From positions 1 through 20,097 of IMG/VR virus record IMGVR_UViG_3300034101_004161: a DNA stretch of 20,097 nucleotides; one strand, 5' to 3'. The stretch comes from a virus. Both the position numbers and the translations under genes were made by a program. Shown here piece by piece: positions 1,917-19,518 of the stretch. Under the pieces are notes generated by a model. It ran no database searches, was not told the DNA's origin, and worked only from the letters and a program-made list of their open reading frames with translations. Position 1 is the first letter of the stretch. The number at the start of each line of letters is the position of its first letter.

Positions 1917-2317
1917 ACGGCGTGAAGATCACGGGGCTGAACGAGGTCGTCGGGGAGCTTAAAAAGCTGCCGTCGACAATCCGCCTCGGCGACATCTACA
2001 CGGACACGGCCGAAATCTTCGCGGCCCGACTGCGGGCGGCGACACCGCCGGGCTACAGCGGCACGCTCAAGGACTCCGTGATCTACGAAGCCTCCGACGA
2101 CGAGGCGCTCGTGGGCTACGAGAAGGACGTCGAGACGGCTGGAAACCCGCAGCTTGATAGCGTGATTCGCCCGAAAACAAAAGGCCGAAGCGTGCTGAAG
2201 TGGGTTCCGGCGGACGAGCTTGCGACTGTCCTTGAGGAGACGTTCGACGCTTACGCGGCGGAGGGCGTCACCTACATGGAAGGCAGACTCTTGGAGCAGA
2301 TCGATGGCGGCACCTGA
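1913..2317 (+). CDS. HK97 gp10-like tail completion / neck protein
   Basis: A 134-residue protein consistent with the HK97 gp10-like family, which acts at the head-tail or tail-completion interface. It opens with VKITGLNEVVGELKKLP (4-20), the usual 'i.Gl.el...L..lp' helix of the family, followed by a helix AEIFAARLRAATPPG (33-47) and a GTLKDSVIYEA segment (50-60), the counterpart of 'tG.Lr.si'. The C-terminal helix (101-131) is acidic. Start is GTG 1913 within the GTGA overlap. It overlaps the next gene by 14 bases. The placement between the joining protein and a terminator-like protein is the standard order in HK97/SPP1-type phages. Confidence 0.75.
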   Translation: MNGVKITGLNEVVGELKKLPSTIRLGDIYTDTAEIFAARLRAATPPGYSGTLKDSVIYEASDDEALVGYEKDVETAGNPQLDSVIRPKTKGRSVLKWVPADELATVLEETFDAYAAEGVTYMEGRLLEQIDGGT

Positions 2318-2699
2318 AAAGTGGCTTCGCGAGCGGCTGGACTCGGCAACAACGGCCGGAATCTACCCGATTCTGGCAGTCCAGAACGCACCGTTTCCTC
2401 TGGTCGTCTACCGTCGAACCGGCACCCGCCGAGAGCGTGGCCTGACTGGCAATTTCGGCGTCCCTGTGGCGACGTTTTCGGTGGCGATTGTGTCGGAGAC
2501 ATACAGCCAAGCGAAGGACATCGCCGACGCGATTCGGCTCGCTTGCGACAACTTTACGGGCGACACACAGGGCGTGAAAATAGTAACGACGGCCCTCGTC
2601 TCCGAGCAGGACAACATGGAGCGTCCGTTCGAGGGGCAGGCCAAACCGCTGTACAGGGTTGATCAGGTCTACGAGGTCCGTTTCACAGAATCAGTCTGA
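2304..2699 (+). CDS. putative tail terminator / tail completion protein (DUF3168/gp17-like)
   Basis: A 131-residue protein in the position of the tail terminator, which caps the finished tube and binds the neck. The sequence shows an N-terminal helix (EKWLRERLDSA), a hydrophobic strand PFPLVVYRR, a FSVAIVSETYSQAKDIADAI region (a strand followed by a helix typical of these alpha/beta proteins), and a C-terminal strand YRVDQVYEVRF. This is the pattern of the DUF3168/gp17 tail-completion family, but individual residues are weakly conserved there. ATG 2304 is selected because GGAG lies at 2293-2296, seven bases upstream; the longer open frame from 2220 would overlap the previous gene heavily. It is followed by the largest intergenic gap of the operon (21 bases). 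Confidence 0.65.
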   Translation: MAAPEKWLRERLDSATTAGIYPILAVQNAPFPLVVYRRTGTRRERGLTGNFGVPVATFSVAIVSETYSQAKDIADAIRLACDNFTGDTQGVKIVTTALVSEQDNMERPFEGQAKPLYRVDQVYEVRFTESV

Positions 2700-2720: not shown

Positions 2721-3092
2721 ATGCCATTTGAATCTTCGCAGGGTATCGGTTTCACGTTCTCCGGCACCAAGTTCACCGCGACCCAGATCGCCGTGTCGAA
2801 GTCCACTCCTGAAATCGACGTCACGTCGCTGGAGAGCGCTCACGGCAGCTATCGCTCGTACCGTCTGGGCTCGATCCGCGACGGAGACACGCTGAAGGTC
2901 GACTTCATCGGCCTCACCCTGCCGCAGATGACTGCGACCGGTCAGGTCACGTGGACGATTGACGGCACCGGCTCGAACGCCGCGTTCACGACCGGCCTGC
3001 CCACCGCAGCCCTCGTGACGTCGGCCGACGTGACGGCTCAAGTCGGCGAGTTGATCAAGGGCAGCATGTCGCTCCGACTGACGCAGAACTGA
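2721..3092 (+). CDS. major tail tube protein (first copy)
   Basis: A 123-residue, strand-rich protein called a tail tube subunit from its position, its strong ribosome site and its sequence style. It has the alternating beta pattern GIGFTFSGTKFTATQIAV, then TPEIDVTSLES (a signature often seen in tube proteins before the loop) and a C-terminal strand VGELIKGSMSLRLTQ. Tube proteins form stacked hexameric rings around the tape measure and make the DNA conduit. The downstream gene shares the same overall architecture and C-terminal motif, so the two are probably paralogs. The specific family was not identified, so this rests on context and fold pattern. Confidence 0.7.
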   Translation: MPFESSQGIGFTFSGTKFTATQIAVSKSTPEIDVTSLESAHGSYRSYRLGSIRDGDTLKVDFIGLTLPQMTATGQVTWTIDGTGSNAAFTTGLPTAALVTSADVTAQVGELIKGSMSLRLTQN

Positions 3093-3093
3093 G

Positions 3094-3507
3094 ATGCCTG
3101 AACCTTTTTCGTCTCACTACTTAAAGCTGTATTGGGGCGGGAATGTGTTCTACGCGAACTCGATCAAGCGAAGCGCATCATCTGCGACAGAGGTCGACAT
3201 CACCGGAATGAATTCCACGATCACTTCCGATCCGAATAACTCGGATCGGAAGATGATCTGGAAGGAAGTCGAAACGTGCGTCGCAGACCCCGGCGAGGTG
3301 ACGGTTGACTTCTGGGCGGTTGCGGCGGATTTGTACGGCCTCCCTGACGCGGTGGGCTACAAGAAGCTTCTTCAGGTCAGGCACGTAAACACTGGAGAGG
3401 TTCTTCTCTCCTATCAGTGCATTCTTAGTAAGGTCGATCTCGATGCAAGCGTCGGTGAATACGTGAGGGGAAGTGTCACGTTTCGATTGTCTGGATACAA
3501 GGAGTAG
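3094..3507 (+). CDS. second tail tube-like protein (paralog)
   Basis: A 137-residue, strand-rich protein one base downstream of the first tube gene. It shares the signature ATEVDITGMNS with TPEIDVTSLES upstream, and ends VGEYVRGSVTFRLSGY where the neighbour ends VGELIKGSMSLRLTQN. It has two cysteines outside this core and lacks a convincing ribosome site, so it is probably translated by coupling from the first gene. It may be a minor tube component, a decorated or distal tube ring, or a second major subunit in a mixed tube. Its sequence uses visibly more A/T-rich codons than the first copy, which argues against a very recent duplication. Confidence 0.6.
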   Translation: MPEPFSSHYLKLYWGGNVFYANSIKRSASSATEVDITGMNSTITSDPNNSDRKMIWKEVETCVADPGEVTVDFWAVAADLYGLPDAVGYKKLLQVRHVNTGEVLLSYQCILSKVDLDASVGEYVRGSVTFRLSGYKE

Positions 3508-3513
3508 GTAGGC

Positions 3514-3858
3514 ATGGCTCTCAGCAAAGCGGCGATTCTGGCGGCGAACGACAAGAAGATGGTCGACATGGAGGTTCCTGAGTGGAACGGCTCCGTGAAG
3601 ATCAGGGTGATGAGCGGCACCGAGCGTGACCGCTTCGAGGCGGAGTTTGTCGGCGGCAACAAGTCCGTCGACATGGTCCGTGCGAAGCTCGTGGCGAAGT
3701 GCCTGTGCGACGACGACGGCAACCGTCTCTTCACCGAGCAGGAGATTCCTCAGCTTGGCGAAAAGTCGGCGGCGGTTCTCGACAAGCTCTTCACCGCCTG
3801 TATGAAGCTGAACCGGTTCACGAAAGACGACGTGGAGGAGATGGCGGGAAACTCCTGA
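3514..3858 (+). CDS. tail assembly chaperone (lambda gpG-like)
   Basis: A 114-residue protein that corresponds to the short (G) form of the tail assembly chaperone, which coats the tape measure and recruits tube subunits but is not part of the mature virion. The N-terminus MALSKAAILAANDKK is followed by VPEWNGSVKIRVMSGTERDRFE, a typical chaperone beta-hairpin and helix ('V.I..lt..e...f'), then a conserved AKLVAKCLCDDDGNRLF segment and a helical C-terminus. The ribosome site is AAGGAG at 3499-3504. It stops at TGA 3856-3858, immediately after a slippery heptamer, and a second frame carrying a T-like domain follows. The order tube - chaperone - tape measure is standard, so the call is firm despite low sequence conservation in this family. 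Confidence 0.85.
   Translation: MALSKAAILAANDKKMVDMEVPEWNGSVKIRVMSGTERDRFEAEFVGGNKSVDMVRAKLVAKCLCDDDGNRLFTEQEIPQLGEKSAAVLDKLFTACMKLNRFTKDDVEEMAGNS
3846..3852 (+). promoter_or_regulatory. programmed -1 frameshift site (GGGAAAC)
   Basis: In the chaperone frame the codons read gcG GGA AAC, giving a canonical X_XXY_YYZ heptamer G_GGA_AAC four bases before the TGA stop at 3856. After a -1 slip both tRNAs can re-pair on GGG and AAA, and translation continues through 4142. Lambda uses the closely similar GGGAAAG at the same place in its G/T genes. A short GCCG/CGGC stem (3859-3862 with 3870-3873) begins six bases after the heptamer and could stimulate pausing, though it is small. Confidence 0.85.
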
Positions 3859-4142
3859 GCCGTCCGAGGCGGCGTTTCGAGTTTCGATTGGCACTGGCCC
3901 TCGGGATGACGCACAGGCAACTCTTAGAGTCCTGCGACGCCGAAGAGTTGGCGGAATGGGAAAGCTTTTGGCTCATAGAGCCGTGGGGAGATGAGTGGCG
4001 ACAAACCGCTCGCCTTGCCACGGCTCTTTGCACGGCATGGGGCAGTAAGAACCTCGAAGAGGAAATGATCATGCCGTCGAGCCGGAAGCCGCAACAGACC
4101 GCTGGTGAGATGCTTGGCGAACTCATGAAGCTGAGAACCTGA
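3852..4142 (+). CDS. T-domain extension of tail chaperone (GT fusion by -1 frameshift)
   Basis: This is the -1 frame extension; the full product is join(3514..3852, 3852..4142), 209 residues, of which 96 come from this segment. The domain runs LLSRPRRRFEFRLALALGMT, then HRQLLESCDAEELAEWESFW, LIEPWGDEW and a helix with TARLATALCTAWG. The 'LALALGMT..eLl...s..El.eW..fw.lEP.G..w' pattern is that of lambda gpT and related minor tail protein T / GT C-terminal domains, which bind tube subunits and deliver them to the tape-measure-chaperone complex. The only possible independent start, ATG 3906, would remove the conserved LALAL strand-helix and has no ribosome site, so fusion by frameshift is strongly favoured. 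Its stop is three bases before the tape measure start. Confidence 0.85.
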   Translation, partial: LLSRPRRRFEFRLALALGMTHRQLLESCDAEELAEWESFWLIEPWGDEWRQTARLATALCTAWGSKNLEEEMIMPSSRKPQQTAGEMLGELMKLRT

Positions 4143-4145
4143 GCG

Positions 4146-7100
4146 ATGGCAACAATCGGCTCTATCACCGTCGCGTTTGGGGCCGACCTTCGCGGGCTGA
4201 GCGAAGGCATCGACTCGATTGCCGGCATGTTCGACCGAGTCTCCGAGAAGGCCGAGAGGCTCGCAGAGCAACTCGATTCAATCACGTCGAAGTCGGTGTC
4301 GCTCAAGGTGTCGGTGGAGTCATCTGAAGTCGAGAAGGCGAAGTCGCAGATCGAGGGCATCCCCGTAAACTCTGCGAAGAATGTCTCAATCACTGCGGAT
4401 TCTTCACTGGTTGAAGAGGCCAGCGGGGCAGTGGATGAGCTTGGCACTTCCATCACCGCGACTTCACAGGCTGCTTCTGGGGGGCGCGGCCCATTGGCGT
4501 CTCTTCTCGTGACTTCGGCGAGACTGACCTCTGTCGCGCTCTCCGGCGCTTCCGCATACGCGAAGCTGCGGGAGGCGACGGTCCAGAACATCGACGCGAT
4601 CACCGGGCTTGGCTCAACGCAAAAGTCGCTGGCTGTTATTCAGGAAGCCCTTCGCGGGAACGGAACAGCCATAAAGGTTGTCATTCAGGCCACAACGCAG
4701 GCTGTCCGAGACTACGCGAAGTCCTTCCTGACAGTAGAAGGCGCGCAGCAATCGCTACAGAGCGCCGTGCTGGCAACCGCCAGAGCTTTTGGAATATCTG
4801 ACGAAGCCGTAGTGAAGTCTATTGGATTCTTCTCTCAGTTCGCCACCAATCAGATAGCAACTGCGGGGGTGTTTCGCATTTCGCAGAGGGCTTCTGATCT
4901 TCTCGCCAAGGGTTACGAGTCTCTCGCCGTCTCCGCCGCTAAATACTTTACTGGCTCCGACAAGGCAGTCGCCGCAGGCAAGTCTATCGCGGACACACTG
5001 AAAAGCCTCTCGGCCGACGTGAAGTTCCTGAACAGGGACTTCGACGCCGCCGTCAGTGCTATCGCCAAGTTCTCCCAGAACTTCAATATCGTCGGGCGCG
5101 TGTCGGCGACTGTCGGAGCGGCTTTTGACAAAGCCGCTTCGCTCGTTTCTTCTTTCGCATCGTCCGTTGCGTCGTCAAAGACTGCTTCGGACGTGATCAA
5201 CGCGATCTCGGCGGCGATCGGGAGCCTGTCTGCGGCGGCTAAGTCTGCGGTGCCAGCAATTGCCGCGACGATGAAGAGTATCGCGACAGGCGTGGCTCCA
5301 GCCGCAGGGCTTGTCGGAAGCCTCAGCTTGCTGGCGAATGTGTTTTCCGTAGTTTCTGCGGCGTCAGGTGAAACTGCGGCTGGGTTTTTCAGGGTCGCAG
5401 CCGGCGCGGTGGCGCAAACTGCCGCCGCCGGCGCGGTGGGGGGGGCCATCACTGCCGCAGCAGCGGGGGCATCGGTTATGGCCGGTGCCGCCGCCGGTGC
5501 CGCCACGGCAGTTGGCGGTCTTGCCTCGATCTTTCCGGTCACAACCGCGCTGGCTGTTGCCACGGCTGTTGCCACGGGCCGCGTTGCCCACGCACTGCAA
5601 CACGTCGGTGACAATGCCGAGATGATGGGCAACCTCGCCGACAGGTTCGGCCAGCCAGTGCAAGAGATCGAGAAGCTCAAGATTGCCGCCGAGCAGTCGG
5701 GCGTTGCCCTGAATTCCGTCGTCCGCGCCCAGCAAGTCTTCAGCCAGAACGTCAGCAAGATCAAGATCGGAAACCTTGGCGTCGAGCAGACCCGCGAGGC
5801 GAGCGCGGCCATGAAGCAGTTGGGTATCAGCGCCGAGGAACTCCGCAGCAAGAAGCCGGAAGACCTGTTCATCGACGTTGCCCGGGAAATCTCCAAGCTG
5901 CCTGACGCCACCAAGAAGACTCAGGTCGCGATGGACCTGTTTGGAAGAACTGGCCCTCAGATTCTTCCTCTTCTCAAGAACCTCGAACAGGTCAACGAAG
6001 ACATTGGCAGGCTCGGCGGCACGATCAGCGACCTCGACTTCGAGCGGTTTCTGGCTGTCGACCAGTCCTTCGACAGACTGACGACCGCCTCCGGCGCAAT
6101 GACCGACGATCTCGTCATCCCGTTCACGAGGATGCAGGAGGCGTGGAACAACGCGTCGGCCGAGGTCATTGGCGGACTTGCGCCGCTCGTCGGCGCTGTC
6201 GGCGAGGTCATCGCGGACCTTTCCACGCCGCTTGCCGTGATTGTCGAGGTGACTGGCAGGGTACTCGGCATCTTTGCGAGGGTCGCGGCGGCGGTAGCGA
6301 AGATTGTCACGGCGTTTCTGCCGGTGGCTTCGACCGCCATCTTGTTCGAGTTGCTAGGAGACGCGATCAACGCCGTTCTGAAGCCAGTTGAGTTTCTTGT
6401 CGACACGATGGAAGGCTTCGCGTCGACGGTCGAAGAGTTCATGCGGCCCACTGTCGAGGGATTTCTCAGGATTGGGGAAGCGGCGACAGAACTGCTCAAT
6501 GTTTTCACAGACTTGCTGGGTCTCGGCGACATCTTTGGAGAGACGACCGCCTCTCTTCTTGCTCTTGGGTTCGCGTACCTTGCGGTCACGTCTTCTTCGC
6601 AAATCTTCTCCGCCGTCATGGCGACCTCGGCCGGCACCGCGATTGCAAGCGCAGCCACTACGGCGGCTGCTTGGGTTGCCGCAGGTGCCGCGATTGCTGC
6701 CGCGATTGTCGGCGCGGCTGTTGTGGCGATCGGCGTTTACGTTGCATCTGTCATCGCCGCCACGGCGACGACCATCGCGTCATGCGCAGCGATGCACGTA
6801 GCGTGGCTGTTCGGGCTGGGTCCACTCGGCGCGTTGATCGCCGGCGTCGAGCTTCTCTCCGTAGGTGTCGTCGCCCTGTATGCCTTCGGAGGGAGCATTG
6901 TCGATTTCTTCAGCGGCTGGGGTGATGGGGCCAAGGAAATCGACGGCGCGACTGCCAGTGTTGAGGAACTGACTGCGGCTGTTGAGGAGAACCAGAACAA
7001 AGGACTTGCAAAAGACGCGAAGGCGGTGGCCGACGCACTCGCACCGCCGGGGGACAGTTCCGGCACGGCCCAGGTGAACTTCGGCGACGGCGCGAGGGAC

Positions 7101-9785
7101 GTGCAAGTTCAATTTGGCTGGGCTCGCGAGGCGGTCGTGCGGTTCGGAATGTCTTTCGGCGTCAGCGAAGAGCAGGCAAGGGCGTGGGCCGCGAGCGTTG
7201 CCGCCGAAGCCGCCGGCGTTGCCGAGTCGCTGAAGGGGCCGTCGAAGGAAGAGATCATGTCGGGCATCTCGTCTGCCAGAGACGAAATGGCTGAACTGTC
7301 CATCCGCGCTGCCAAGTTCGGTCAGGCCGGCGCTGACGCTGCCTCGAAAAGCACCGAGGAGTTCAACGAGCTACAGCGTCAACTTGGCTCTGGGGCAATC
7401 AATATCGAGGAGTTCAACGAAGGCGCTGCCGGCATTGCGGAGAGTCTCAGCAAGGGCTTGGATGAGATCGCAAAGTCGAGCCCCGAGGAAACACTCAAGA
7501 GAAATCTTGAACTCTTCAAGCAACTCGACGATTCGGTGAAGTCGGCGGAAAAGTCTTTCCGAGACCTGACTGCCGTTCGCATGGTCGGCGACGATTTGCT
7601 GCCGGCCTCCGATGAAGTTAAGAGGCGTGCGGCCGAGTTGCAGGCTGAGTATTCCTCTGCCATTGAGGCAATCAAGAAGAAGCAGGCCGCTGGCGGCTTC
7701 CAGTCAGAACTCGACCAGAGGAGAAGCAAGGCTGAGGAAGACTTGGAGTCGGGCAAGATCGACTCGATTGGATACTCCGTGATCATGGCGGAGCTTGACT
7801 CCACCAATGCTCAGGAAGAAGCCAACAAGGCCGTCGAGGAGGTTAATCGCGAGCTAGATCGAAAGCGTGCCACGCTCAAGGCCGACATCTCCTTCGCCGA
7901 TGACATCCGCAAGCAACTTGATACTGCGTTCCTGTCTCCGGTGCAAAAGTTCGAGAAGGAACTGAAGAAGATCAAAGACAATCCACAGCTTTCCGACATG
8001 GACAAGTTGCTTGCGGAGACAAATCTCCGCAAGGAGGCCCGCGAGAGCCTCGTCGGCAAGTCAGCCCAGACTCAGCTTCAGGAGCGAAGCCGGGACGTTG
8101 CGCAGGCGGCGGAAGCTGGCCTGATCAACGCGGACGAACTGAATGCAGGACTCAAGAAGGCCGCAGAGGACTTCGCGTCCGCCGTGGGCGTCACAAAGAC
8201 TCCGTTCGAGACGTTCTCGTCGTCGCTCGACAACATTGCCAAGCAGTTCGGATTCGCCGGCCAGCCGATCGACGTAGTTCGCGAGAAGCTCAAGGGCAAC
8301 GCCGAGCAACTCGCGTTGTTCGATCGTGCCGTGCAGGAGTCTCGCGACAACCTCCTCGCCTCTCTGGGCATCGAGAAGACTCCCCAGCAAGTCTTCGACG
8401 AGCAGATCGAGAAGATTAATGAGGCCGTAAACGCAACCGACCCCAACAAGCGGATTACGCAAGAGCAGGCCGATCAGGCAACGGCTGTTGCCACTCGCAA
8501 GCGAGATTCTGCCCTCGGTGCCGGCGAAGACCTTGGCGGTCAGTTCAGGGATCGTCAGGCGAAGATCGACGAGGCTTTCGGCGGCGGGAAAGACCCGGCC
8601 AAGCTTGCCGTGGCCCAGAACAAACTCGACATGGACAGGCGGTCTGCCGCCGGTCTTGAGGCCACGCCGGCTCAGGCGATGAAGGCCGGCATCGACAAAG
8701 TCAACGACGCCTTCGGCGTGACCGGCAAGTCGATGGCTGAGATTCAGGCCACGCTTTCGCCAGCCGCGTTCGAGGAATATCAAGAGGCGATCAAGAAGAA
8801 CAAGACCGCCATCGAGGAGTCGCTTGGCGTCCAAAAGCCGTCGATCGTGAGGCTGCAAGAGGCTCAGGACAGGCTTGCAGACGCAGTCGGCGAGAACGTC
8901 ATCTCTCAGGAGCAAGCTGGCTCTGCGGCACGAAAGCTTCGTGACGATTTCATGTCTTCACTCGGCGTCGCCAAGACTCCGTTCGAGGAGTTCTCTGGTG
9001 CCCTCGACAACATCGCAGACCAGTTCGACATGGCGGGCCAGCCGCTCGACGCGGTGCGTGAGAAGCTCAAGGGCAATGCGGATCAGCTTGCCCTATTCGA
9101 CCGTGCGGTCAAGACGGCTCGCGACAATCTCCTCTCGTCTCTCGGCATCGAGAAGACCCCACAGCAAGTCTTCGAAGAGCAGATGAAGAAGATCGAGGAG
9201 GCCGTCGCATCGACTGACCCGAATAAGCAAATCACGAAAGAGCAGGCAGAGCAAGCGAGGACTAACGCAACTCGAAAACGTGATGAGGCTCTCGGCGGTG
9301 AGAGTGCAGCCGACTTCGGCGGCAGGATCAAGGAGCAACGAGCAAAGATCGAGGAAGCCTACGGCAAGGACGGTGCGAACGATCCAGAGAAGTTCAAGTC
9401 GGCCATGAAGAAGCTGAACGAGTCGATCCCCGGTGCTGAGCAGCAAAGCCCGGTCCAGAAGTTCCAAGAAGACCTTGAGAAGCTGAAGGCGACGTTCGGC
9501 GAAGGTACTCCCGAGTTCGAGCAGAACAAGAAAAACCTCCAAGCCCAACTCCAAGAAGACCTCGCCCCTGCCCTCGACGCCACGAAGGCGGATCGGCGGG
9601 GCATCGAGGGTTCTGACGCACGAAGCAAGGGCGGCGTCGACACGTTCTTCCGCATTCTTCGTGGCAACGACAACCCGTCGCTCAAGGCCCAGCTTGATAT
9701 CGCACGCAACACTCGGATTCTCGCGGAGGCCGCAAAGAACCCGGACGCGGCCCCCGTCATCGCGCAACTCTCAGCACCAAGATAA
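4146..9785 (+). CDS. tail tape measure protein
   Basis: An 1879-residue tape measure, which sets tail length, recruits chaperones and is ejected into the host during infection. It begins with GSITVAFGADLRGLSEGID and a coiled coil typical of these proteins. Long Ala/Gly/Val-rich hydrophobic stretches lie at about residues 392-484, 695-739 and 803-925 and probably act as membrane-inserting segments. Around residues 500-620 is the recognisable core FGQPVQEIEKLKIAAEQSGV, with QLGISAEELRSKKPEDLF and the AMDLFGRTGPQILPLLKN turn, as in TP901/HK97-type tape measures. The C-terminal half is helical and charged, with a tandem duplication at residues about 1347-1479 and 1606-1740. Its position after the chaperone pair confirms the call. 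At about 0.15 nm per residue the length predicts a tail near 280 nm. The ATG at 4146 lies three bases after the GT stop, so translation is probably coupled. Confidence 0.95.
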   Translation: MATIGSITVAFGADLRGLSEGIDSIAGMFDRVSEKAERLAEQLDSITSKSVSLKVSVESSEVEKAKSQIEGIPVNSAKNVSITADSSLVEEASGAVDELGTSITATSQAASGGRGPLASLLVTSARLTSVALSGASAYAKLREATVQNIDAITGLGSTQKSLAVIQEALRGNGTAIKVVIQATTQAVRDYAKSFLTVEGAQQSLQSAVLATARAFGISDEAVVKSIGFFSQFATNQIATAGVFRISQRASDLLAKGYESLAVSAAKYFTGSDKAVAAGKSIADTLKSLSADVKFLNRDFDAAVSAIAKFSQNFNIVGRVSATVGAAFDKAASLVSSFASSVASSKTASDVINAISAAIGSLSAAAKSAVPAIAATMKSIATGVAPAAGLVGSLSLLANVFSVVSAASGETAAGFFRVAAGAVAQTAAAGAVGGAITAAAAGASVMAGAAAGAATAVGGLASIFPVTTALAVATAVATGRVAHALQHVGDNAEMMGNLADRFGQPVQEIEKLKIAAEQSGVALNSVVRAQQVFSQNVSKIKIGNLGVEQTREASAAMKQLGISAEELRSKKPEDLFIDVAREISKLPDATKKTQVAMDLFGRTGPQILPLLKNLEQVNEDIGRLGGTISDLDFERFLAVDQSFDRLTTASGAMTDDLVIPFTRMQEAWNNASAEVIGGLAPLVGAVGEVIADLSTPLAVIVEVTGRVLGIFARVAAAVAKIVTAFLPVASTAILFELLGDAINAVLKPVEFLVDTMEGFASTVEEFMRPTVEGFLRIGEAATELLNVFTDLLGLGDIFGETTASLLALGFAYLAVTSSSQIFSAVMATSAGTAIASAATTAAAWVAAGAAIAAAIVGAAVVAIGVYVASVIAATATTIASCAAMHVAWLFGLGPLGALIAGVELLSVGVVALYAFGGSIVDFFSGWGDGAKEIDGATASVEELTAAVEENQNKGLAKDAKAVADALAPPGDSSGTAQVNFGDGARDVQVQFGWAREAVVRFGMSFGVSEEQARAWAASVAAEAAGVAESLKGPSKEEIMSGISSARDEMAELSIRAAKFGQAGADAASKSTEEFNELQRQLGSGAINIEEFNEGAAGIAESLSKGLDEIAKSSPEETLKRNLELFKQLDDSVKSAEKSFRDLTAVRMVGDDLLPASDEVKRRAAELQAEYSSAIEAIKKKQAAGGFQSELDQRRSKAEEDLESGKIDSIGYSVIMAELDSTNAQEEANKAVEEVNRELDRKRATLKADISFADDIRKQLDTAFLSPVQKFEKELKKIKDNPQLSDMDKLLAETNLRKEARESLVGKSAQTQLQERSRDVAQAAEAGLINADELNAGLKKAAEDFASAVGVTKTPFETFSSSLDNIAKQFGFAGQPIDVVREKLKGNAEQLALFDRAVQESRDNLLASLGIEKTPQQVFDEQIEKINEAVNATDPNKRITQEQADQATAVATRKRDSALGAGEDLGGQFRDRQAKIDEAFGGGKDPAKLAVAQNKLDMDRRSAAGLEATPAQAMKAGIDKVNDAFGVTGKSMAEIQATLSPAAFEEYQEAIKKNKTAIEESLGVQKPSIVRLQEAQDRLADAVGENVISQEQAGSAARKLRDDFMSSLGVAKTPFEEFSGALDNIADQFDMAGQPLDAVREKLKGNADQLALFDRAVKTARDNLLSSLGIEKTPQQVFEEQMKKIEEAVASTDPNKQITKEQAEQARTNATRKRDEALGGESAADFGGRIKEQRAKIEEAYGKDGANDPEKFKSAMKKLNESIPGAEQQSPVQKFQEDLEKLKATFGEGTPEFEQNKKNLQAQLQEDLAPALDATKADRRGIEGSDARSKGGVDTFFRILRGNDNPSLKAQLDIARNTRILAEAAKNPDAAPVIAQLSAPR
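8184..8582 (+). repeat. tape measure internal repeat, copy 1
   Basis: About 133 codons that recur 777 bases (259 codons) downstream. The copy starts at VGVTKTPFETFSSSLDNIA, continues through GQPIDVVREKLKGNAEQLAL and SLGIEKTPQQVFDEQIEKI, and ends at AKIDEAFG. The DNA is similar as well as the protein, for example AAGACTCCGTTCGAG at 8196 and 8973. More diverged similarity extends on both sides, so the full duplicated unit is probably about 259 residues. Confidence 0.9.
8961..9365 (+). repeat. tape measure internal repeat, copy 2
   Basis: The second copy of the unit at 8184. It begins LGVAKTPFEEFSGALDNIA, includes GQPLDAVREKLKGNADQLAL and SLGIEKTPQQVFEEQMKKI, and ends at AKIEEAYG. It carries two extra codons relative to copy 1 in the GGESAADFGG region. 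Differences are largely conservative, so both copies appear to be under selection for a helical structure. Confidence 0.9.
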
Positions 9786-10653: not shown

Positions 10654-11013
10654 ATGGGGTACGGCCCGTCGAGGCAGATGCGTGGTGCCGGAAACTACGG
10701 CGAGCAACTGGTGCAGTTCAAGCTGGCCGATGCTCAGCGGATTGCTAACGTCGTCGGACAGGTTGAGGGGTCGAGGAGGGGGCGAAAGAACTCGACACTG
10801 CCAAGGGCGGCGGGTGGCGGCGGTGGGGGGGCGCTCACCACGGCGACGTTTAGCGGTAGCTGGCTGAAGGGAACAAATAAAGTCGTGAACCTCAGCGACG
10901 GAACCGCTACCGCCGTAAACATCCTTGCAAACGTCCTGTATGCGGCAGGGACTCGCAAGTGCGTTCTTGCTCAGATAGACGGTGCATTCACGCTCATTTC
11001 GTCGGAGTGCTAA
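10654..11013 (+). CDS. small Gly-hinge protein before the fiber
   Basis: A 119-residue protein of unknown function. It has a basic, helical N-terminal half (LADAQRIANVVGQVEGSRRG), a glycine-rich hinge (AAGGGGGGAL, about residues 52-61) and a compact beta-rich C-terminal domain TFSGSWLKGTNKVVNL, ending KCVLAQIDGAFTLISSEC. The C-terminal part resembles the small 'F.G.W..G..k.v' domain often seen in phage tail-tip proteins, where a cysteine pair closes the fold; this is a resemblance, not an identified family. A GAGGTGA site is at 10644-10650. Its stop TAA overlaps the next start by one base (TAATG), so the two are tightly coupled, and it may be an adaptor or partner for the large fiber. Confidence 0.55.
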   Translation: MGYGPSRQMRGAGNYGEQLVQFKLADAQRIANVVGQVEGSRRGRKNSTLPRAAGGGGGGALTTATFSGSWLKGTNKVVNLSDGTATAVNILANVLYAAGTRKCVLAQIDGAFTLISSEC

Positions 11014-14000
11014 TGGGATTCTTCGACGACTGCGAGGAATGCTGCTCGCCGCGTGCTTACGCATGGAGGACCGCCAAGTGGGAATTCTACTACGGCTACT
11101 TTGCCTCGCCACTCATGCTTGGCTATGGCCGGCAATGCAGCAACCCTTTTGACAGGCCTCCCCTGTTAGGCACAGGTCAGACGACGATACCAAAACAGGG
11201 CGATTGGATTTTCCTCGCCACGAGCAGCGAGAGGAGCTACGGAATTCTCGCGGACGGAAGCCTGTGGGGGTGGGGAAAGGCTCCGCTTGGTGATGGAACC
11301 CTAAACGACCGATATCACCCGCATCGCATTGGAAGCGATCGGTGGAAGTGCGTTTCCACGTGCGAAACGCACACGCTGGGAATCAAGCAGGACGGCACGC
11401 TTTGGGCGTGGGGCCGGAACGAGAGCGGGCAACTTGGGGATGGAAACGCATACCCCGCCTTCAGCGAATCGCCTCGCGTCATGCTCAACTCTAGTATCGC
11501 ATCGGTCAGCATAAATGAGGGAATGTTTCAGAGCATCCGCGAATCCCCAACGTCAGTCTCTTTTATCAAGCACGCCCCGAGCGACCCCGGCAGCGGGGCG
11601 ACGGCTACTTGTGCAGTCTCGCTGTCGGTTGTCGGATTTAATTTCGAGCCAAATTCGCCCCCAAACTTTTCTTCTCAAAACAAGCACTACGCAGTGAGGG
11701 GCGGGAGCGGGTACAAGTCGGTTCCGACGGTCGTTGTCACGCCAAGCGTGCCTGACCCGTGCATAATCACTGCGAACTGCCAATTTGATGTGTATGGGGC
11801 CACGCTGTTGAGCGGAGGCAGTGGATACGGCCCGGACACTGCGGTTGTTTTCTCCAAAAACGCCGAGGGCGATTCAGCCACAGCCACATGCACGGTTGCT
11901 GGCGGAGTCATAACGTCCATCACCCCGCAACGTGTAGCGACATACGACACGCCCCCGACAATCACCTTTACTGGCGGCGGACAAGGAGCGGTGGCTACTC
12001 CAGCAATCTACAGCGGGCGGGTGCTATCTCTTACGATATCATCCGGCGGCTCCGGGTACACGTCGCCGCCGACAATCACATTCGAGGGTGGCGAGCCGGA
12101 AGTCGCAGCGTCCACTTTTGCTTCTATGCAGGCGGTGGCGGTCAATGTGACAATCACGAACGGCGGGAGCGGCTACACGCAGCCGCGTGGCGGCATAAAG
12201 ACGAGGCTGAATTTTGCGTCTGGAAGTTCAGTGGACATCGGCACTGTCAACCTGTCACCCGGCGGCCTGTCGCACGTGCCGCCCTTTGAGAGCTTCTATT
12301 CAATCAGTACGAGCTTAGGAGAAATCACATTTGATCCATTTTACATAACCCACGATCTGGCAGAGATAAGAAATACCCACCAGATAATCTATGACGCGCC
12401 GTACCCGAGCCCCTACAGCGACTCCGTCCAGCAGGCACTCGCCTCGCTGAATGTGACGGCAAGCCTCGTTTCGAGCGAGGCTCCGGATGTGCCCCTAAGC
12501 GTTACGTTCGAGCCCGGCGCGACGTTCTTGCAGGCACGGTGGAAGATATCCAAGCCTTCGACGATCGTCGGCCGCACGCGGAATTGCGTAATCCGCGTGT
12601 TCGTGCCTTCATTTGACATTAACTACACATACCCCAACATCGAGATGATAACGCCGTCTCATGTCAAAGGGCAGACATTTCAGTCGCTCGTCGTCGAGAA
12701 GGGAGACGCAAGTTTGTACAACCCAACAGGACCGTGGGTTGTCGCTGATAGGTTTGATAACACAACAATATTCAAGGCCACGTCAACTGAGTTGGTGCCG
12801 TTTAATCAGTGGCAAGAGACTCAGCAAACGCTTTCTGGAACTTACGGGACAGTCGTCGTCGACCAAGTGAGCGGCGGAGAACCTATTTACCCACGACTCC
12901 AGTACATTCCGTGGGGGTGGACGAAGAATGCCCAGCAAATCCCGCCCTACGGGAACAACTATCATGCGATAAGGCAGCAGGGCTATGGCAGTAGCTTTCA
13001 GACATTTCGCAATCCTCCCGAGTGGACGTCAACAGTGTTCCACGTCAAAGAGAGGTGTTATCACGCCAGAGAGGTAGGGGTCGCCCCGGCGACGTCCTTT
13101 CCAGACATAGCAACCTTTTTCGTGGACGGCGACGGCATAGGCGGTATGATTTCGGGCTCTTTCACGCCGTCCACGGGAAAGACTTCATACTCTGTGTCGC
13201 AGGCTGGCTCTGGCTACACCTATGAGCCCAGCGTAACAGCGACGACATTTGTGATCAGCCCAAAGCGGGTGGGCTCCGAATCGGACTGGCAGAGCGTCGT
13301 TGCAGCCGGAGGAAACCCCGCTTCGTCCGCCGGGCTTCGTCAGGATGGATTCCCGATGCGGTGGGGCACCGCTAGTTCCGTCACCTCTTTCAGCCCTGCG
13401 AGAGTCGGATTTCCTCTGTCAGCAAAAATAAAAGACCCGAGTTCTATCGTTAACTGGGAAAGCTATTTTTATAGCAACTACTACGTCCAGTCGCTCGTCT
13501 ACGGATTACCCCCCTCGCGCGAAGTGGTGAACGGCCTTTCCCCCCAGACGGTTGGTCCGGTGTTCGTCTCCCCAAGCGCGGACCCTTGGGTCGTCGACAG
13601 AATTATTACGAAACAAGGCAGTCTCAGTTTTGCCGGGCTCGCCCCCGGCCCTTACGATTTCACAGGTTACTTAACAACGCGGCGTGGTGACATTTGGCCG
13701 TCTTGGTCTAGGTACTGCGGCGGCCCGCAAACTATTTACACGTTCAGCAATATTCAGTCGCTCACGGCCGCGCCAACGCCAGAGCAAGGCGATGTTAGTA
13801 CGTACCAGCACTTCGTTCCGTTTCCTTATGAAAGGGAGGCGGTTCTTCCTGAGTTGCTGCCGGATCGAGCGTCCACGAGTACGCGGACGTTTCTTGGGTC
13901 GTGCTTCACGTCTGCTCCAAATCTAGGACCAGAGGTCGACTGCGTCCTTCACTCGCCCGGCTCCTGTTCTCGTCTTTTCGTTGACGAGGGGATGCTTATG

Positions 14001-17000
14001 GCCGTATCTAAGAGCGGGGAGGTGTGGAGAATTGGTTTCACTGGGCCGGGGACTGTGTCGCATTCGCCGGCGCACGTCTACGGAGAATCTGATGAGTCAA
14101 AGAAAATTGACATCAAGGTGTACGGATACGAAGCGGACGTCATCTGGGAGTGGGCCACCGCAACAAGAGAGCAGGAAGTGGTTTTGCTAGCGAGTTCTTG
14201 GGCATACGGCTCTTTCAGGCACGAAGTTCGATCGGACACGTTTACCTCTCGATACCTTCTTCCACCAACAAAAACTGTCGAGAACGAGTCTTCTGGATGG
14301 TCAAACTCGATATCCGTGAGTCCGTACAGGTCTTGGAAGATTGTGATCACAAACCCCGGGTCGGGATACAAGCCTGGGGATGTCATTAGAATCAAAATTT
14401 CAGGCGGAAAGACGTTTGAGTTTGATCGCATTACCACGCAGACTTCTGCCGCCGAGAAAGAAACAGTCAAGACTGGCACTCTCACTTACACATACAGCGG
14501 AAGAGTTGTCGGAGACACTGCTTTTGCTGGCTTTCCATTAAGCTGCACAACTTACGTCTCCAACGGCCGCGCTGACACATTTTCGACTATTCTGCAACTT
14601 CCGGGCTCTCAGATCGGCGCGCCTCCTCAGCAGCCGCACCCGCCTTACGTGTGGTCGAACAGCGGGGCATACGGAGGAAGGCCGCGACGTCGATTCAGCA
14701 TCTCGCTTGCAACAGGCGTCCAGCTTGGTGATTCCGCTGCCCCAGCCATTCAATGCGATAGCGGTGAGGCGGACATAGAGGTCATCAAGAAGCTGACGTG
14801 CCACCTGATTGACAGATACGAGACGCGACTCGTTGACGTTCCGGAGCAAATAAGGTCCAACGTCGGCGGTTACGGATATCTTACCGGCATCACAGTGGCA
14901 GACGGTGGGTTGTACATGAACCCCCTAGCCTTCGGCAACGACGTTATTGATGCCCCTGACAACTTGTTTGTCACGGTTCCGTCGGTCGAGATCATCGCCG
15001 ACTCAGGAGGCGGCTCTGGTGCCACCGCAAAACTCGTCCCGGTCAGGAACTCGCCCGACGTACCAGACGTGCCGCTCAAGGTGTCGAGTGACGCAAACAC
15101 CTACCAAAGGCAGATCACATCCGCCAACGCGCAGTACGGCGTCACGTCTGGCGGTCTTATTCAATTCAATAATCCGAAGGTGAACGCACCGCCTTCCCAC
15201 CAGAGAGGCATAACAAGTCTGACCCAGCACTTGGCGAGAACATCGTCTCGGGACTTGCTGAGGCTTCGCTCCGGCACGCCCCTTGAGGCCGTTCGTGCAT
15301 TTCCGAACGTGGAGCTTACGCTCGCGGATGCTGGCAAGAACTATCGTCTCCCGCCGCTCATCTCGATGCCACAGCCTCACGCCTCCGTGGCGGTTGCTGA
15401 GGCTCACATCAGCGGCAAGCTTGTTTCGCTTGGGGTTGAAAACGGAGGCTCTGGGTACAGGTATGCCCCAACTCTAACGCTATCGGGCGGCGAGGGGACC
15501 GGCGCAACAGCCCGTGCGGTGATCTCCGGACCTGTCGACTCTGTTGCATTGACGTCAGGCGGCTCCGGATACGCCGCGACCCCAAAGGTGGCCTTCTCCG
15601 GCGCAGGAATACCGGCGACCGCAACGGCAGTGGCAAGGGGTTACGTTTCGTCGATTGTCATTGCCGACGGAGGCTCTGGATACACGTCGTCTCCGCCGCC
15701 GGTAGTCATCACCGGAGACGGGTCGGGCGCTTCCGCCGTTGCGACAACATCGGGGAGGGTGAGGTCTGTGTATCTGTCCTCCGGTGGCGGGGGGTATGAC
15801 TCTCCGCCGACGGTTACGATCAGCGGCGGAGGCGGATCGGGGGCCACGGCAGTGGCCCACATGAGGTTGAATCCGGCAACCAACAAGTATTCTGTCAGCC
15901 ACTTCGAGCTAACGAGTCACGGGAGCGGATACACGAGCCCGCCAACCGTCACTGTCTCCCCGCCACCATCCGGCAACGCGGGGGCGATTCCGGCACTCGC
16001 GGTCGCGGAGGTTGTTTTCTATGTCGACTCAGTGACAATCACTTCTCCCGGTCAGGGGTATTCGACTCCTCCCGCAGTCACGGTTCTTGGCGGCACAGCG
16101 CGAGTGTTTGCGTTCTTGTCAATGTCCGTCGAGGAGTTGTCGCTCAGAAGCGGCGGAACGTACCGATCACCGCCATCCATCTTTTTTCGCCCGGTGGCAA
16201 CAGTTGAATCGGTCACGCTCACGTCGGCCGGCGAAAACTACACGAGAGCGCCGGAGGTTTTGATTGTCGGTGGCGGAGGCAGCGGAGCGGCTGCGGCGTG
16301 TACGATCGGCCCAGACGGAAGAATAAACAAGCTGACACTGACCGCCAGAGGCGTGGGGTATCGGCCCGGCTCTGCTCCGCACGTGGTGTTTGTCGGCGGC
16401 GGCGGAAGAGGCGCTTCCGCGACGGCGACGGTTCTAACGCTTGGCGGAGGCGGAGGCGGCACGACGACGATAAACGGGTCGATTCTTTACGCTGAGCCGA
16501 CGGCTGAGGGTAGTGGCTACCAATTCTCGCCAATAGTTACGATTTCGGGAGGAGGGAATCAAAGGCTTTCCGCCCTTAACGAAGACCTGTCTGCCGGCAG
16601 AATCACACAGTCGCAGTACGACTCGCAGGTCGACGACGTTCGCGGGGTTGTGCTTGCAAGGGTTGAGGGCGCGATCGATCGAATTGACATCACGAACGCC
16701 GGGGACCGGTACTCGTCTCAAGCAGCCTTCGACAGGACTGCGCTGGCGAGGATTCCGGCAAGGGCGACGGCGGTTGGGCCGCTCGGCAGGGGATCGGGAG
16801 ACACTCTTCTGCTATTCAATGCTACCAATGAGTGGCCGGGCGGCGGAGTTTCACAGCCTTCATCTCTGCCGTCGGCCAAATTCCTTCAGAAGCCACAGAT
16901 TCGTTTTCAGAACGGCATCTACGCAGAGGTGCAAGACTTTTACATCAGTAAAGTTACGTGCAACGGACTGAGGACTTACCCAACAAGGCCGACTGGAGCG

Positions 17001-17951
17001 AGCATGTATTCCGGCAACAGTCAGGCTTCGCTAATTGCAAACGGAAACTTGTCTTTTGGTTCATTCAACCAGCAGTGGAGCTACGGGTCTGGCTTGAGTA
17101 AATTCGCATTCGACGTGGCACCGGAGTTCGACGTCGTTGACAGGGCCGGAGGCGGTGCGGCGGTGGCGGCCACGCTCAACGGCTCCGATAAGATTTCTGG
17201 GCTGTCTTTCACGTCGCAGGGCTCGGGGTACACACCGCGCGCGGCCGTGCAGGCACGAGACGGTTGGATCAAGGTTGTCCCGTGTCAGGCGTCATGCACG
17301 ATCAATTCATCCGGCAGCGTCACAAGCGTGACAATATCAAGCCCCGGCGACGGATATGTCTCGCCCGTTGCAATCGTTCACGGAGGAGGCGGCTCTGGGT
17401 GCGTGCTTGTTGTTGATTTGGTTGATGGGAACACCCCTCGTGCAGTGCGTTCTCTGTCCGTATCTAGCGGCGGCAGTGGCTATAGCCAAAGCAATCCGCC
17501 GGCTGTGCTTGTCTACGATTCGTCCGGATCGTTTGGCGATAGCATCTACGGGCAGGCATTTAACGAATCCGCGCTAAGAAGCACCGTGGGTCCATTTCTG
17601 GCAAGTTCATACTCAGGAGAATATGCACTTCCATATTCTTCAGAACTCTCGGGGGGCGACTTCAAAAGCGCTTCCGGACCGAAAGTCCTCGGCGAGTTTG
17701 TTTTTGACGGATTCCAGAAGAACCAAAGCATCGAGAACCTGAGCATCTCGCTAGATCAGGAAGACTTTCTGGCACATGCGTATCAGTCCTCGCCGCAAGT
17801 GACGGTCAACGGAACGTGCGACAGGCAGGCGTCCGTTGCGGCCACTGTTGCAAAATGGACGACTGTTGTCGACTCATTCTCGCGACCGGACGGGTACCCC
17901 TTCAACCTTCCGCATGAGTTTTCAATCGCCCTGCGGGACACCTTGCCATGA
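11013..17951 (+). CDS. giant fiber-like protein with RCC1 and GSGY repeats
   Basis: A 2312-residue protein, the probable host-contact or side-fiber protein. It opens with a Cys-rich MGFFDDCEECC. Residues about 63-163 hold an RCC1-type propeller segment (YGILADGSLWGWG, LGIKQDGTLWAWGRNESGQL). Degenerate RCC1-like units recur at about 756-800 (AGLRQDGFPMRWG, FSPARVG) and 985-1047 (LMAVSKSGEVWRIG). Between and after them are about 20 copies of a 'GSGYtsPPtVtisGGgGsGAtA' unit, densest at residues about 1436-1849. A short helical, SHOCT-like insert (SALNEDLSAGRITQSQYDSQ) lies at about 1853-1872. No catalytic residues were recognised. The ATG at 11013 is chosen over an in-frame GTG at 10959 because GGAG lies at 11004-11007 and it overlaps the previous stop. 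It overlaps the next gene as ATGA. Several segments have lower GC and different codon use than neighbours, as expected for a mosaic fiber. Confidence 0.8.
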   Translation: MGFFDDCEECCSPRAYAWRTAKWEFYYGYFASPLMLGYGRQCSNPFDRPPLLGTGQTTIPKQGDWIFLATSSERSYGILADGSLWGWGKAPLGDGTLNDRYHPHRIGSDRWKCVSTCETHTLGIKQDGTLWAWGRNESGQLGDGNAYPAFSESPRVMLNSSIASVSINEGMFQSIRESPTSVSFIKHAPSDPGSGATATCAVSLSVVGFNFEPNSPPNFSSQNKHYAVRGGSGYKSVPTVVVTPSVPDPCIITANCQFDVYGATLLSGGSGYGPDTAVVFSKNAEGDSATATCTVAGGVITSITPQRVATYDTPPTITFTGGGQGAVATPAIYSGRVLSLTISSGGSGYTSPPTITFEGGEPEVAASTFASMQAVAVNVTITNGGSGYTQPRGGIKTRLNFASGSSVDIGTVNLSPGGLSHVPPFESFYSISTSLGEITFDPFYITHDLAEIRNTHQIIYDAPYPSPYSDSVQQALASLNVTASLVSSEAPDVPLSVTFEPGATFLQARWKISKPSTIVGRTRNCVIRVFVPSFDINYTYPNIEMITPSHVKGQTFQSLVVEKGDASLYNPTGPWVVADRFDNTTIFKATSTELVPFNQWQETQQTLSGTYGTVVVDQVSGGEPIYPRLQYIPWGWTKNAQQIPPYGNNYHAIRQQGYGSSFQTFRNPPEWTSTVFHVKERCYHAREVGVAPATSFPDIATFFVDGDGIGGMISGSFTPSTGKTSYSVSQAGSGYTYEPSVTATTFVISPKRVGSESDWQSVVAAGGNPASSAGLRQDGFPMRWGTASSVTSFSPARVGFPLSAKIKDPSSIVNWESYFYSNYYVQSLVYGLPPSREVVNGLSPQTVGPVFVSPSADPWVVDRIITKQGSLSFAGLAPGPYDFTGYLTTRRGDIWPSWSRYCGGPQTIYTFSNIQSLTAAPTPEQGDVSTYQHFVPFPYEREAVLPELLPDRASTSTRTFLGSCFTSAPNLGPEVDCVLHSPGSCSRLFVDEGMLMAVSKSGEVWRIGFTGPGTVSHSPAHVYGESDESKKIDIKVYGYEADVIWEWATATREQEVVLLASSWAYGSFRHEVRSDTFTSRYLLPPTKTVENESSGWSNSISVSPYRSWKIVITNPGSGYKPGDVIRIKISGGKTFEFDRITTQTSAAEKETVKTGTLTYTYSGRVVGDTAFAGFPLSCTTYVSNGRADTFSTILQLPGSQIGAPPQQPHPPYVWSNSGAYGGRPRRRFSISLATGVQLGDSAAPAIQCDSGEADIEVIKKLTCHLIDRYETRLVDVPEQIRSNVGGYGYLTGITVADGGLYMNPLAFGNDVIDAPDNLFVTVPSVEIIADSGGGSGATAKLVPVRNSPDVPDVPLKVSSDANTYQRQITSANAQYGVTSGGLIQFNNPKVNAPPSHQRGITSLTQHLARTSSRDLLRLRSGTPLEAVRAFPNVELTLADAGKNYRLPPLISMPQPHASVAVAEAHISGKLVSLGVENGGSGYRYAPTLTLSGGEGTGATARAVISGPVDSVALTSGGSGYAATPKVAFSGAGIPATATAVARGYVSSIVIADGGSGYTSSPPPVVITGDGSGASAVATTSGRVRSVYLSSGGGGYDSPPTVTISGGGGSGATAVAHMRLNPATNKYSVSHFELTSHGSGYTSPPTVTVSPPPSGNAGAIPALAVAEVVFYVDSVTITSPGQGYSTPPAVTVLGGTARVFAFLSMSVEELSLRSGGTYRSPPSIFFRPVATVESVTLTSAGENYTRAPEVLIVGGGGSGAAAACTIGPDGRINKLTLTARGVGYRPGSAPHVVFVGGGGRGASATATVLTLGGGGGGTTTINGSILYAEPTAEGSGYQFSPIVTISGGGNQRLSALNEDLSAGRITQSQYDSQVDDVRGVVLARVEGAIDRIDITNAGDRYSSQAAFDRTALARIPARATAVGPLGRGSGDTLLLFNATNEWPGGGVSQPSSLPSAKFLQKPQIRFQNGIYAEVQDFYISKVTCNGLRTYPTRPTGASMYSGNSQASLIANGNLSFGSFNQQWSYGSGLSKFAFDVAPEFDVVDRAGGGAAVAATLNGSDKISGLSFTSQGSGYTPRAAVQARDGWIKVVPCQASCTINSSGSVTSVTISSPGDGYVSPVAIVHGGGGSGCVLVVDLVDGNTPRAVRSLSVSSGGSGYSQSNPPAVLVYDSSGSFGDSIYGQAFNESALRSTVGPFLASSYSGEYALPYSSELSGGDFKSASGPKVLGEFVFDGFQKNQSIENLSISLDQEDFLAHAYQSSPQVTVNGTCDRQASVAATVAKWTTVVDSFSRPDGYPFNLPHEFSIALRDTLP
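11695..12200 (+). repeat. GSGY protein-repeat array A
   Basis: Coding repeats inside the giant protein. Units seen are GGSGYKSVPTVVVTP, SGGSGYGPDTAVVFS, a degenerate VATYDTPPTITFTGGG, SGGSGYTSPPTITFEGG and TNGGSGYTQPRGG, spaced about 105 to 120 bases apart. The shared core is a Gly-Ser-Gly-Tyr turn followed by a proline pair and a beta strand. Confidence 0.85.
15320..16560 (+). repeat. GSGY protein-repeat array B (dense)
   Basis: The densest block, with about 11 consecutive coding units spaced about 80 to 165 bases apart. Examples are NGGSGYRYAPTLTLSGG (15440 region), SGGSGYAATPKVAFSG (15555), DGGSGYTSSPPPVVITG (15663), SGGGGYDSPPTVTISGG (15780), SHGSGYTSPPTVTVSPP (15910) and EGSGYQFSPIVTISGGG (16503). 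Many units continue into GGSGATA and a strand such as VDSVAL or VRSVYL leading to the next. The regular spacing suggests a repetitive beta fold such as a chain of small sandwich domains or a beta-solenoid. Confidence 0.9.
17205..17510 (+). repeat. GSGY protein-repeat array C
   Basis: Three further units near the C-terminus of the giant protein: SQGSGYTPRAAV, SPGDGYVSPVAIVHGGGGSG and SGGSGYSQSNPPAVLVYDS. They are spaced about 120 to 130 bases apart and show the same turn-proline-strand pattern as arrays A and B. Confidence 0.85.
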
Positions 17952-18220: not shown

Positions 18221-18471
18221 ACCATCAGAAGTGGCTCTGGCGGTACTCACCGCTCAAGGGCACGGCCGACGGCTGGACTGAGTTCGACAAGAAAAAAGTG
18301 TTGATCGACAAGAGGCTGAGGGGTAGAACACGGCTCGAAACAGAGATACACGAGGGGCTGCACGCGTCGTTCGGAAAGACGATCTCCGAAGAGGCGGTCA
18401 CACAGACCGCCAGCGACCTCGCCAAGATTCTCTGGCTGCTCGGATACAGGATTCAGGAGGAATCGCCGTGA
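18196..18471 (+). CDS. mini HEXXH metallopeptidase-like protein
   Basis: A 91-residue protein with a clear HEXXH zinc motif, H52-E-G-L-H56, in the context TEIHEGLHASFG, followed by SEEAVTQTASDLAKILWLLGYR. In small phage and bacterial proteins of this type the motif sits in one helix and an acidic residue in the next (here E65 or E66) completes the zinc site. The N-terminal 35 residues form a short beta region that includes the extended strand WLWRYSPLKGTADGW, and VLIDKRL precedes the motif. The length is about half that of SprT-like domains. ATG 18196 is within a 25-base overlap with the previous gene; GGGAAGG at 18178-18184 is a plausible ribosome site. Proteolytic activity is inferred from the motif alone; the substrate is unknown. 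Confidence 0.65.
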   Translation: MEDHHFQIDHQKWLWRYSPLKGTADGWTEFDKKKVLIDKRLRGRTRLETEIHEGLHASFGKTISEEAVTQTASDLAKILWLLGYRIQEESP

Positions 18472-19049
18472 TCGATGAAAGTACGGATACGGTGGCCGAC
18501 GATGACGACGATGAGATCGCCGAGGACTTGGATTCCTCCGTCGACATGGATCGAGCCACTCCGATGCCCGGCGCGTTTGGGGTCACCGAGGCGTGGCGGA
18601 GCCTCACTGAGAAGTCGGCCGCGATCTACGCAGCCCGTCGCGACAACCCCAAAGACCTCGTCGGCTCGAACAAGCTGCCGCTGCACCTCTGGCCGACGAC
18701 GGCCACGGCAATGGGCTCTGTCGCCCTCCTGAACGGCGCGTTGAAGTACGGACGGTCGAACTGGAGGGCCGTCGGAGTCCGCGCCAGCGTCTACGTGGAC
18801 GCCTGCCAGCGGCATCTGGCAGCGTGGTTCGAGGGCGAGGAGTCGGACGAGGAGGGCGTGCCCCACTTGTCGGCGGCTCTCGCGTGCCTCGCGATCATCG
18901 TCGACTGCCAAGCCGCCGGCAAGCTCAAGGACGACAGGCAGTTCCCCGGCGGCCACAGGAAGCTCATCGACTCGCTCACGCCTCACGTGAAGCGGCTGCG
19001 GGAGTTGCACGCCGACAAGTCTCCGAAGCACTATGACTCCAGAACTTGA
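18468..19049 (+). CDS. dATP/dGTP diphosphohydrolase-like protein
   Basis: A 193-residue protein resembling the phage dATP/dGTP diphosphohydrolase N-terminal family (DUF5664). It has a very acidic start (11 D/E in the first 20 residues), then the family motifs NKLPLHLWP (68-76), LLNGALKYGRSNWR (87-100), VRASVYVDACQRHLAAWFEG (104-123), GVPHLSAALACLAIIVDCQ (130-148) and DDRQ (155-158). The pattern of helices with acidic and histidine residues is that of an all-alpha, MazG-related NTP pyrophosphatase. It would hydrolyse purine dNTPs, lowering competing nucleotides or adjusting pools during infection. Start is GTG 18468, preceded by GGAGG at 18456-18460, and the start overlaps the previous stop. 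It overlaps the dCMP deaminase gene by 17 bases, so the two are coupled. The exact substrate is not provable from sequence. Confidence 0.75.
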   Translation: MIDESTDTVADDDDDEIAEDLDSSVDMDRATPMPGAFGVTEAWRSLTEKSAAIYAARRDNPKDLVGSNKLPLHLWPTTATAMGSVALLNGALKYGRSNWRAVGVRASVYVDACQRHLAAWFEGEESDEEGVPHLSAALACLAIIVDCQAAGKLKDDRQFPGGHRKLIDSLTPHVKRLRELHADKSPKHYDSRT

Positions 19050-19518
19050 CTACCTCAGACAGGCATGCCAGACGGCGAGACGAGAGTCGCACGACCCTCG
19101 CACGCACGTCGGTGCCCTCCTCGTGTCGAGACGTGGCGTCGCGGTGTGGGCGGCGAACACGTTCCCGCCCGGTGTGCTTCGCTCGCTTTCCCGGCTGGAG
19201 CCGCCTCGCAAGTACAAGTTCATGGAGCATGCGGAACGGAACGCAATCTACGCGGCGGCCTCCGCAGGCATCTGCACGCATGGGGCGACACTTTACGCCC
19301 CGTGGTTCGCATGCCCAGACTGTGCTAGGGGCATCATCTGCGCCGGAATCGCTGAGGTCGTCGGGCTCGCGTCGTTGCGTGCAGCAACGCCAGAGCGGTG
19401 GGAACGCGACATCGCGACGGCGGAGCAGATGCTTCAAGAGGCCGGAGTCGCCACTCGATGGCTCGCCGGCACCGTCGGAGAGAAAATCCGATTCGACGAT
19501 CGAGAGATCGCCGTCTAA
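19033..19518 (+). CDS. deoxycytidylate (dCMP) deaminase
   Basis: A 161-residue member of the zinc-dependent cytidine/dCMP deaminase superfamily, which converts dCMP to dUMP and so feeds dTMP synthesis. It has the usual N-terminal THVGALLVSRRG strand (24-35), the motif H66-A67-E68 in FMEHAERNAIYAAASAG, and P95-C97 in FACPDCARGIICAGI with zinc ligands H66, C94 and C97 and E68 as the proton shuttle. The active site looks complete. The helix RDIATAEQMLQEAGV and a final strand are also typical. The ATG at 19033 lies within the previous gene. The terminal position of the + strand operon, beside a diphosphohydrolase, fits a phage nucleotide-metabolism cassette. Free cytosine or tRNA deaminases share the fold, so dCMP as substrate is a best guess. 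Confidence 0.8.
   Translation: MTPELDYLRQACQTARRESHDPRTHVGALLVSRRGVAVWAANTFPPGVLRSLSRLEPPRKYKFMEHAERNAIYAAASAGICTHGATLYAPWFACPDCARGIICAGIAEVVGLASLRAATPERWERDIATAEQMLQEAGVATRWLAGTVGEKIRFDDREIAV

Follow-up and report, generated by a model that had tools for sequence, protein, structure and literature searches.

Anatomy of the candidate frameshift site

The locus described herein, found in the 20,097-base viral metagenome record IMGVR_UViG_3300034101_004161 (IMG/VR) that was analysed as a single window, raises the question of how a T-like tail domain, encoded in the −1 frame immediately behind a tail assembly chaperone gene, comes to be translated. All features in this part of the record lie on the plus strand. 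The upstream gene is a G-like ORF of 114 amino acids (positions 3514 to 3858), which we assign as a tail assembly chaperone analogous to gpG on the basis of its match to PHROG 344 and of 54 relatives, and which is preceded by a Shine-Dalgarno-like AAGGAG (3499 to 3504) located 9 nt 5′ of its ATG at 3514. Its 3′ end reads GAG ATG GCG GGA AAC TCC TGA. Divided as GC G|GGA|AAC|TCC|TGA, this stretch presents the heptamer G_GGA_AAC (3846 to 3852) in the correct X_XXY_YYZ phase, with a single codon (TCC) separating it from the TGA stop (3856 to 3858), which begins 3 nt after the heptamer; the stop may be TGA, TAA or TAG among the relatives but is found at the same distance. No other in-phase XXXYYYZ sequence exists where the G frame and the −1 frame overlap. 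Beyond the heptamer, another 96 codons of the −1 frame lead to a stop that ends at 4142 (T-like domain, 3852 to 4142), and these codons would be read only after a shift, giving a predicted GT fusion of 113 + 96 = 209 amino acids. Both the phase of the heptamer just before the stop and the 96-residue extension had been described in an initial sequence-only reading of this DNA, and both descriptions proved to be accurate.

The protein families of the two halves are those expected of a chaperone pair of this type. The match of G to PHROG 344 (tail assembly chaperone) spans the full protein with an E-value of 3.4e-30, and its matches to the Pfam tail assembly chaperone families, including a weak one to PF16459 (Phage_TAC_13), all fall below the cut-offs. 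The 96-residue extension scores 29.5 bits against Pfam PF06223 (Phage_tail_T, Minor tail protein T), for which the gathering score is 25.9, and matches PHROG 337 (tail protein) with an E-value of 5e-9. The T-like identity that had been proposed for it is therefore well founded. When the 209-residue fusion is searched as one sequence, it matches PHROG 14766 (E-value of 2.2e-10) over residues 21 to 194, a region that spans the junction, as well as PHROG 25875 (E-value of 7e-5); both are families of full-length GT-type fusions. Sequence searches recovered no solved structure for any relative of G.

The surrounding gene order is that of the standard tail module of long-tailed phages. Directly after T lies a gene for a tape measure protein of 1879 amino acids (4146 to 9785), which matches PHROG 8462 (tail length tape measure) with an E-value of 9.7e-21. 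The ORF directly before G (3094 to 3507) has no family match, and the candidate major tail protein ahead of it (2721 to 3092) has no confident one. G and T are located between the candidate major tail protein gene and the tape measure gene, with the upstream tail genes assigned by gene order only. This order agrees with that of annotated homologues: in homologous phages, the position of the 3094 to 3507 ORF is occupied by a tail protein or an unnamed gene that follows the major tail protein. Genes further 5′ have PHROG matches to a head-tail adaptor, a neck protein and a tail terminator. The tail terminator-like ORF (2220 to 2699, plus strand; PHROG 347) is listed from a TTG at 2220 within the preceding gene, and its real start is more likely the ATG at 2304.

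Conservation of the slippery heptamer

A scan of viral contigs yielded 54 loci related to G, from which we left out one that ends before the site (L030) and one distant match of 34% (L055), the latter having no in-phase heptamer in the range scanned and a −1 frame of only 26 codons. The resulting comparison set consists of the record and 52 related viral contigs, which together represent 40 distinct regions. A pattern scan of bacterial and archaeal genomes found no relatives there.

An in-phase slippery heptamer is present at the end of G in the record and in all 52 informative relatives. Counted by locus, GGGAAAC occurs 26 times (the record included), AAAAAAC 25 times and GGGAAAA twice, where it is positioned one codon upstream of the usual place; no non-slippery intermediate was encountered in this set. 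By comparison, background codon positions of homologous G genes hold no in-phase XXXYYYZ sequence in 4415 positions, and the genes of the record itself hold five in 2987, none of them of the GGGAAAN or AAAAAAN kind. Codon choice at the site is equally conspicuous. The rare codons GGA (12% of Gly codons) and AAA (14% of Lys codons) are invariably chosen at the heptamer, and the Ala codon is always GCG ahead of GGA (replaced once by the Ser codon TCG) and always GCA ahead of AAA, although other Ala codons are in use. If Ala-Gly-Asn is held fixed, the codon usage of the record, taken as products of codon-usage fractions, predicts GCG-GGA-AAC in about 3% of cases, and the corresponding figure for the alternative GCA-AAA-AAC is about 1.4%.

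On a tree computed without the heptamer bases, well-supported branches require GGGAAAC and AAAAAAC to have been exchanged on at least two separate occasions; AAAAAAC occupies two or more distinct parts of the tree, among them L041, which lies within the record's own clade. Recombination could also transfer the site between lineages, and slipperiness would be kept in that case too. Given that Gly-Asn and Lys-Asn are both allowed, these sequences offer a clean comparative example in which slipperiness itself, rather than the encoded residues, is selected. The three X bases are replaced together in each such switch, and no conserved stimulator was found (see below); the repeated switching could conceivably be a way of adjusting the shift rate to the tRNAs of the host, an idea we put forward only tentatively.

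The same data bear on whether the two frames are joined by something other than the ribosome, such as transcriptional slippage, or are an artefact of an indel or sequencing error. Polymerase slippage is conceivable on the six-A run of the AAAAAAC relatives, but the record and half of its relatives have runs of only G3 and A3, and what is conserved is not a simple run but an XXXYYYZ sequence that keeps the phase of the G frame. Error is excluded because about 40 distinct sequences share the same arrangement. We therefore regard this explanation as exceedingly improbable.

Frame of selection and the starts available to T

Variability by codon position, computed over 38 distinct sequences, reveals which frame is under selection on either side of the site. 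Upstream of the heptamer, values for the three positions of the G frame are 0.10, 0.05 and 0.32; downstream, those of the −1 frame are 0.12, 0.08 and 0.31. It is thus at the heptamer that the variable third position changes from that of the 0 frame to that of the −1 frame. Over the next 230 nt, none of the 38 sequences has a stop in the −1 frame, while each of the other frames is interrupted by stops in 36 of them. As judged from these patterns, selection is demonstrably acting on the −1 frame downstream of the site.

A constrained −1 frame could also be explained if T were a separate protein made from its own start codon, through independent or coupled initiation. The record does not lack candidate starts: a CTG at 3855 to 3857 overlaps the TGA stop of G, a TTG (3888) and an ATG (3906) follow, and 216 nt of open −1 frame precede the heptamer, with possible starts in them, for example the GTG at 3699. 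Moreover, in some homologues annotators have listed the downstream ORF as a gene in its own right. These starts are not shared by the relatives, however. The codon overlapping the stop is CTA, which is not a start, in 25 of the 40 regions, and in 14 of the 40 the −1 frame is closed by a stop no more than 15 nt upstream of the heptamer. Six of those 14 (L017, L025, L026, L028, L049 and L050) have no ATG, GTG or TTG before +219, with the scan covering the available sequence of L025, which is truncated. Given these upstream stops and missing start codons, an independent T start is not the conserved mechanism, in keeping with the original observation that the T-like domain starts without a ribosome site. 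In addition, conserved T residues (LL.RPRR.FE[FY]RLAL) begin at the heptamer, upstream of the CTG, TTG and ATG candidates, and a separate start would leave the conserved heptamer unexplained. On the distribution of start codons and upstream stops, we reject a separate T start as very unlikely.

Candidate stimulatory elements

A small GCCG/CGGC stem had been noted downstream of the heptamer. Such a stem is indeed present six bases after the heptamer and is slightly longer than described, with GCCGUC (3859 to 3864) pairing with GGCGGC (3868 to 3873) across the 3-nt loop CGA (GCCGUC-CGA-GGCGGC, 3859 to 3873, plus strand). A narrower version of the G/GT frameshift proposal, compatible with a functional heptamer, would make this stem an obligatory stimulator. 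Its 6-nt spacing is suitable for such a role, and its sequence is identical in the record's closest relatives; however, most AAAAAAC relatives, as well as L009, L010, L013, L014 and L047, lack the stem or have it in altered form, and its stability in the record does not differ significantly from that of shuffled sequences (z of about −0.8). Furthermore, the stem bases are constrained in any event by their coding for the RPRR motif of T. Pair counts across the relatives equal those of shuffled controls (79.4% versus 78.9%), no covariation beyond chance is evident among them, and RNAalifold applied to the relatives returns a different weak structure, likewise with no covariation. Given that folding, RNAalifold and pair counts all fail to support it, a conserved stimulatory stem is rejected, and we consider it unlikely that the stem is obligatory; it might serve as an optional stimulator in the record. 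The relatives as a group do not have the conserved structure 5 to 9 nt downstream that characterizes stem-stimulated signals.

A Shine-Dalgarno-like GGAGGAG is also situated just upstream of the heptamer in the record (3834 to 3840). We rejected this element as a stimulator on finding that relatives carry GACGAT, GATGAC or other sequences in its place. As neither the stem nor GGAGGAG is conserved, the analysis identified no stimulator shared across the group.

Proposed mechanism

The protein families, the conservation of the heptamer, the switch in the frame of selection, the missing T starts and the joined genes annotated in other phages (see below) all agree with the initial proposal of a G/GT tail chaperone produced by −1 frameshifting. 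We consider it almost certain that ribosomes undergo a programmed −1 frameshift at GGGAAAC, as in the lambda G/GT system, and the support for this assignment is about as strong as sequence alone permits. Most ribosomes would read GCG GGA AAC TCC TGA and stop, releasing the 114-residue chaperone G. In a minority, the tRNAs on GGA and AAC would slip together one base back onto GGG and AAA, and these ribosomes would resume at CTC to complete the 209-residue GT fusion. If the roles are those known from lambda, the G part may bind the tape measure protein, while recruitment of the major tail subunit may fall to the T part.

Sequence and comparison establish the anatomy of the site, the families of both halves and a conserved selection that maintains both slipperiness and the −1 frame; from these we infer the slippage itself, its rate and the division of labour between the G and T parts. 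A set ratio of the two products may likewise be expected from what is known of lambda.

Comparison with known systems

The locus is a further instance of the well-known lambda G/GT class, and no new mechanism is involved. In lambda, the roles of gpG and gpGT have been described and their molar ratio is 30:1, and the G/GT arrangement is widely conserved (review, PMC5009743). The record shares with lambda the gene order of tail protein, G, T in the −1 frame and tape measure, a slippery heptamer just 5′ of the G stop, and a T half that is a member of PF06223 (Minor tail protein T). It differs in that the lambda heptamer is GGGAAAG rather than GGGAAAC, and in that its G belongs to PHROG 344 and matches Pfam chaperone families below cut-offs only.

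Phages of Rhodococcus and Streptomyces have homologues of G that carry the annotation of tail assembly chaperone, and a two-part joined CDS is annotated in phiSASD1, Dubu and Jflix2. In the Streptomyces phages phiSASD1 and Dubu, G is 40 to 41% identical to that of the record and ends with GGGAAAC, the joined CDS lengths fit a −1 join, and the next gene is a tail tape measure or minor tail gene. However, the stop in these phages comes right after the heptamer whereas the record has one codon more, and their T halves have diverged so far that T of the record gives no tblastn match with them; a tblastn search with T of the record matched no named phage.

The Haloarcula tailed viruses HCTV-1 and HCTV-2 are reported to use G_GGA_AAC and A_AAA_AAC for the g-t shift (PMC5009743). 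These archaeal viruses thus resemble our group in having the same two heptamers and the same kind of gene pair, which are the grounds of the comparison. A point that counts against the frameshift assignment, alongside the lack of support for the stem and for GGAGGAG, is that A_AAA_AAC is much less shift-prone than A_AAA_AAG in E. coli (PMC5009743), though this species may not represent the host here.

For the phage group concerned, which is uncultured, recognition of the site allows the two frames to be annotated correctly as one frameshifted gene, which automatic gene callers would split. Four phages, Madraxi, REQ1, Yara and P1312 (L056, L058, L061 and L062), have their T-like ORF annotated as a gene of its own. 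Yara has an in-phase GGGAAAC located 43 nt before the G stop, and therefore a joined CDS has probably been missed. An in-phase XXXYYYZ sequence is absent from the last 120 nt of G in Madraxi, REQ1 and P1312, and thus any shift site in these phages would be of another kind.

Other genes of the record

An ORF of 2330 amino acids (10959 to 17951, plus strand), whose listed start overlaps the preceding ORF, has N-terminal RCC1-type repeats and many SGGSGY..PP.V..SGGGG.GA repeats, and it is likely to encode a large tail or host-contact protein. Further downstream on the plus strand is a gene (18468 to 19049) for a dATP/dGTP diphosphohydrolase N-terminal-like protein (PF18909, E-value of 1.8e-22); its best PHROG match, PHROG 2252, is labelled endolysin, a family name that looks misleading. 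It is overlapped by a gene (19033 to 19518, plus strand) for a Cytidine/dCMP deaminase-like protein (PF00383, E-value of 9.4e-14), an arrangement that suggests the presence of nucleotide-metabolism genes near the tail module. Finally, the C-terminal part of a tyrosine integrase (PF00589) is encoded on the minus strand (19586 to 20095) and runs off the contig end, and thus the phage may be temperate.
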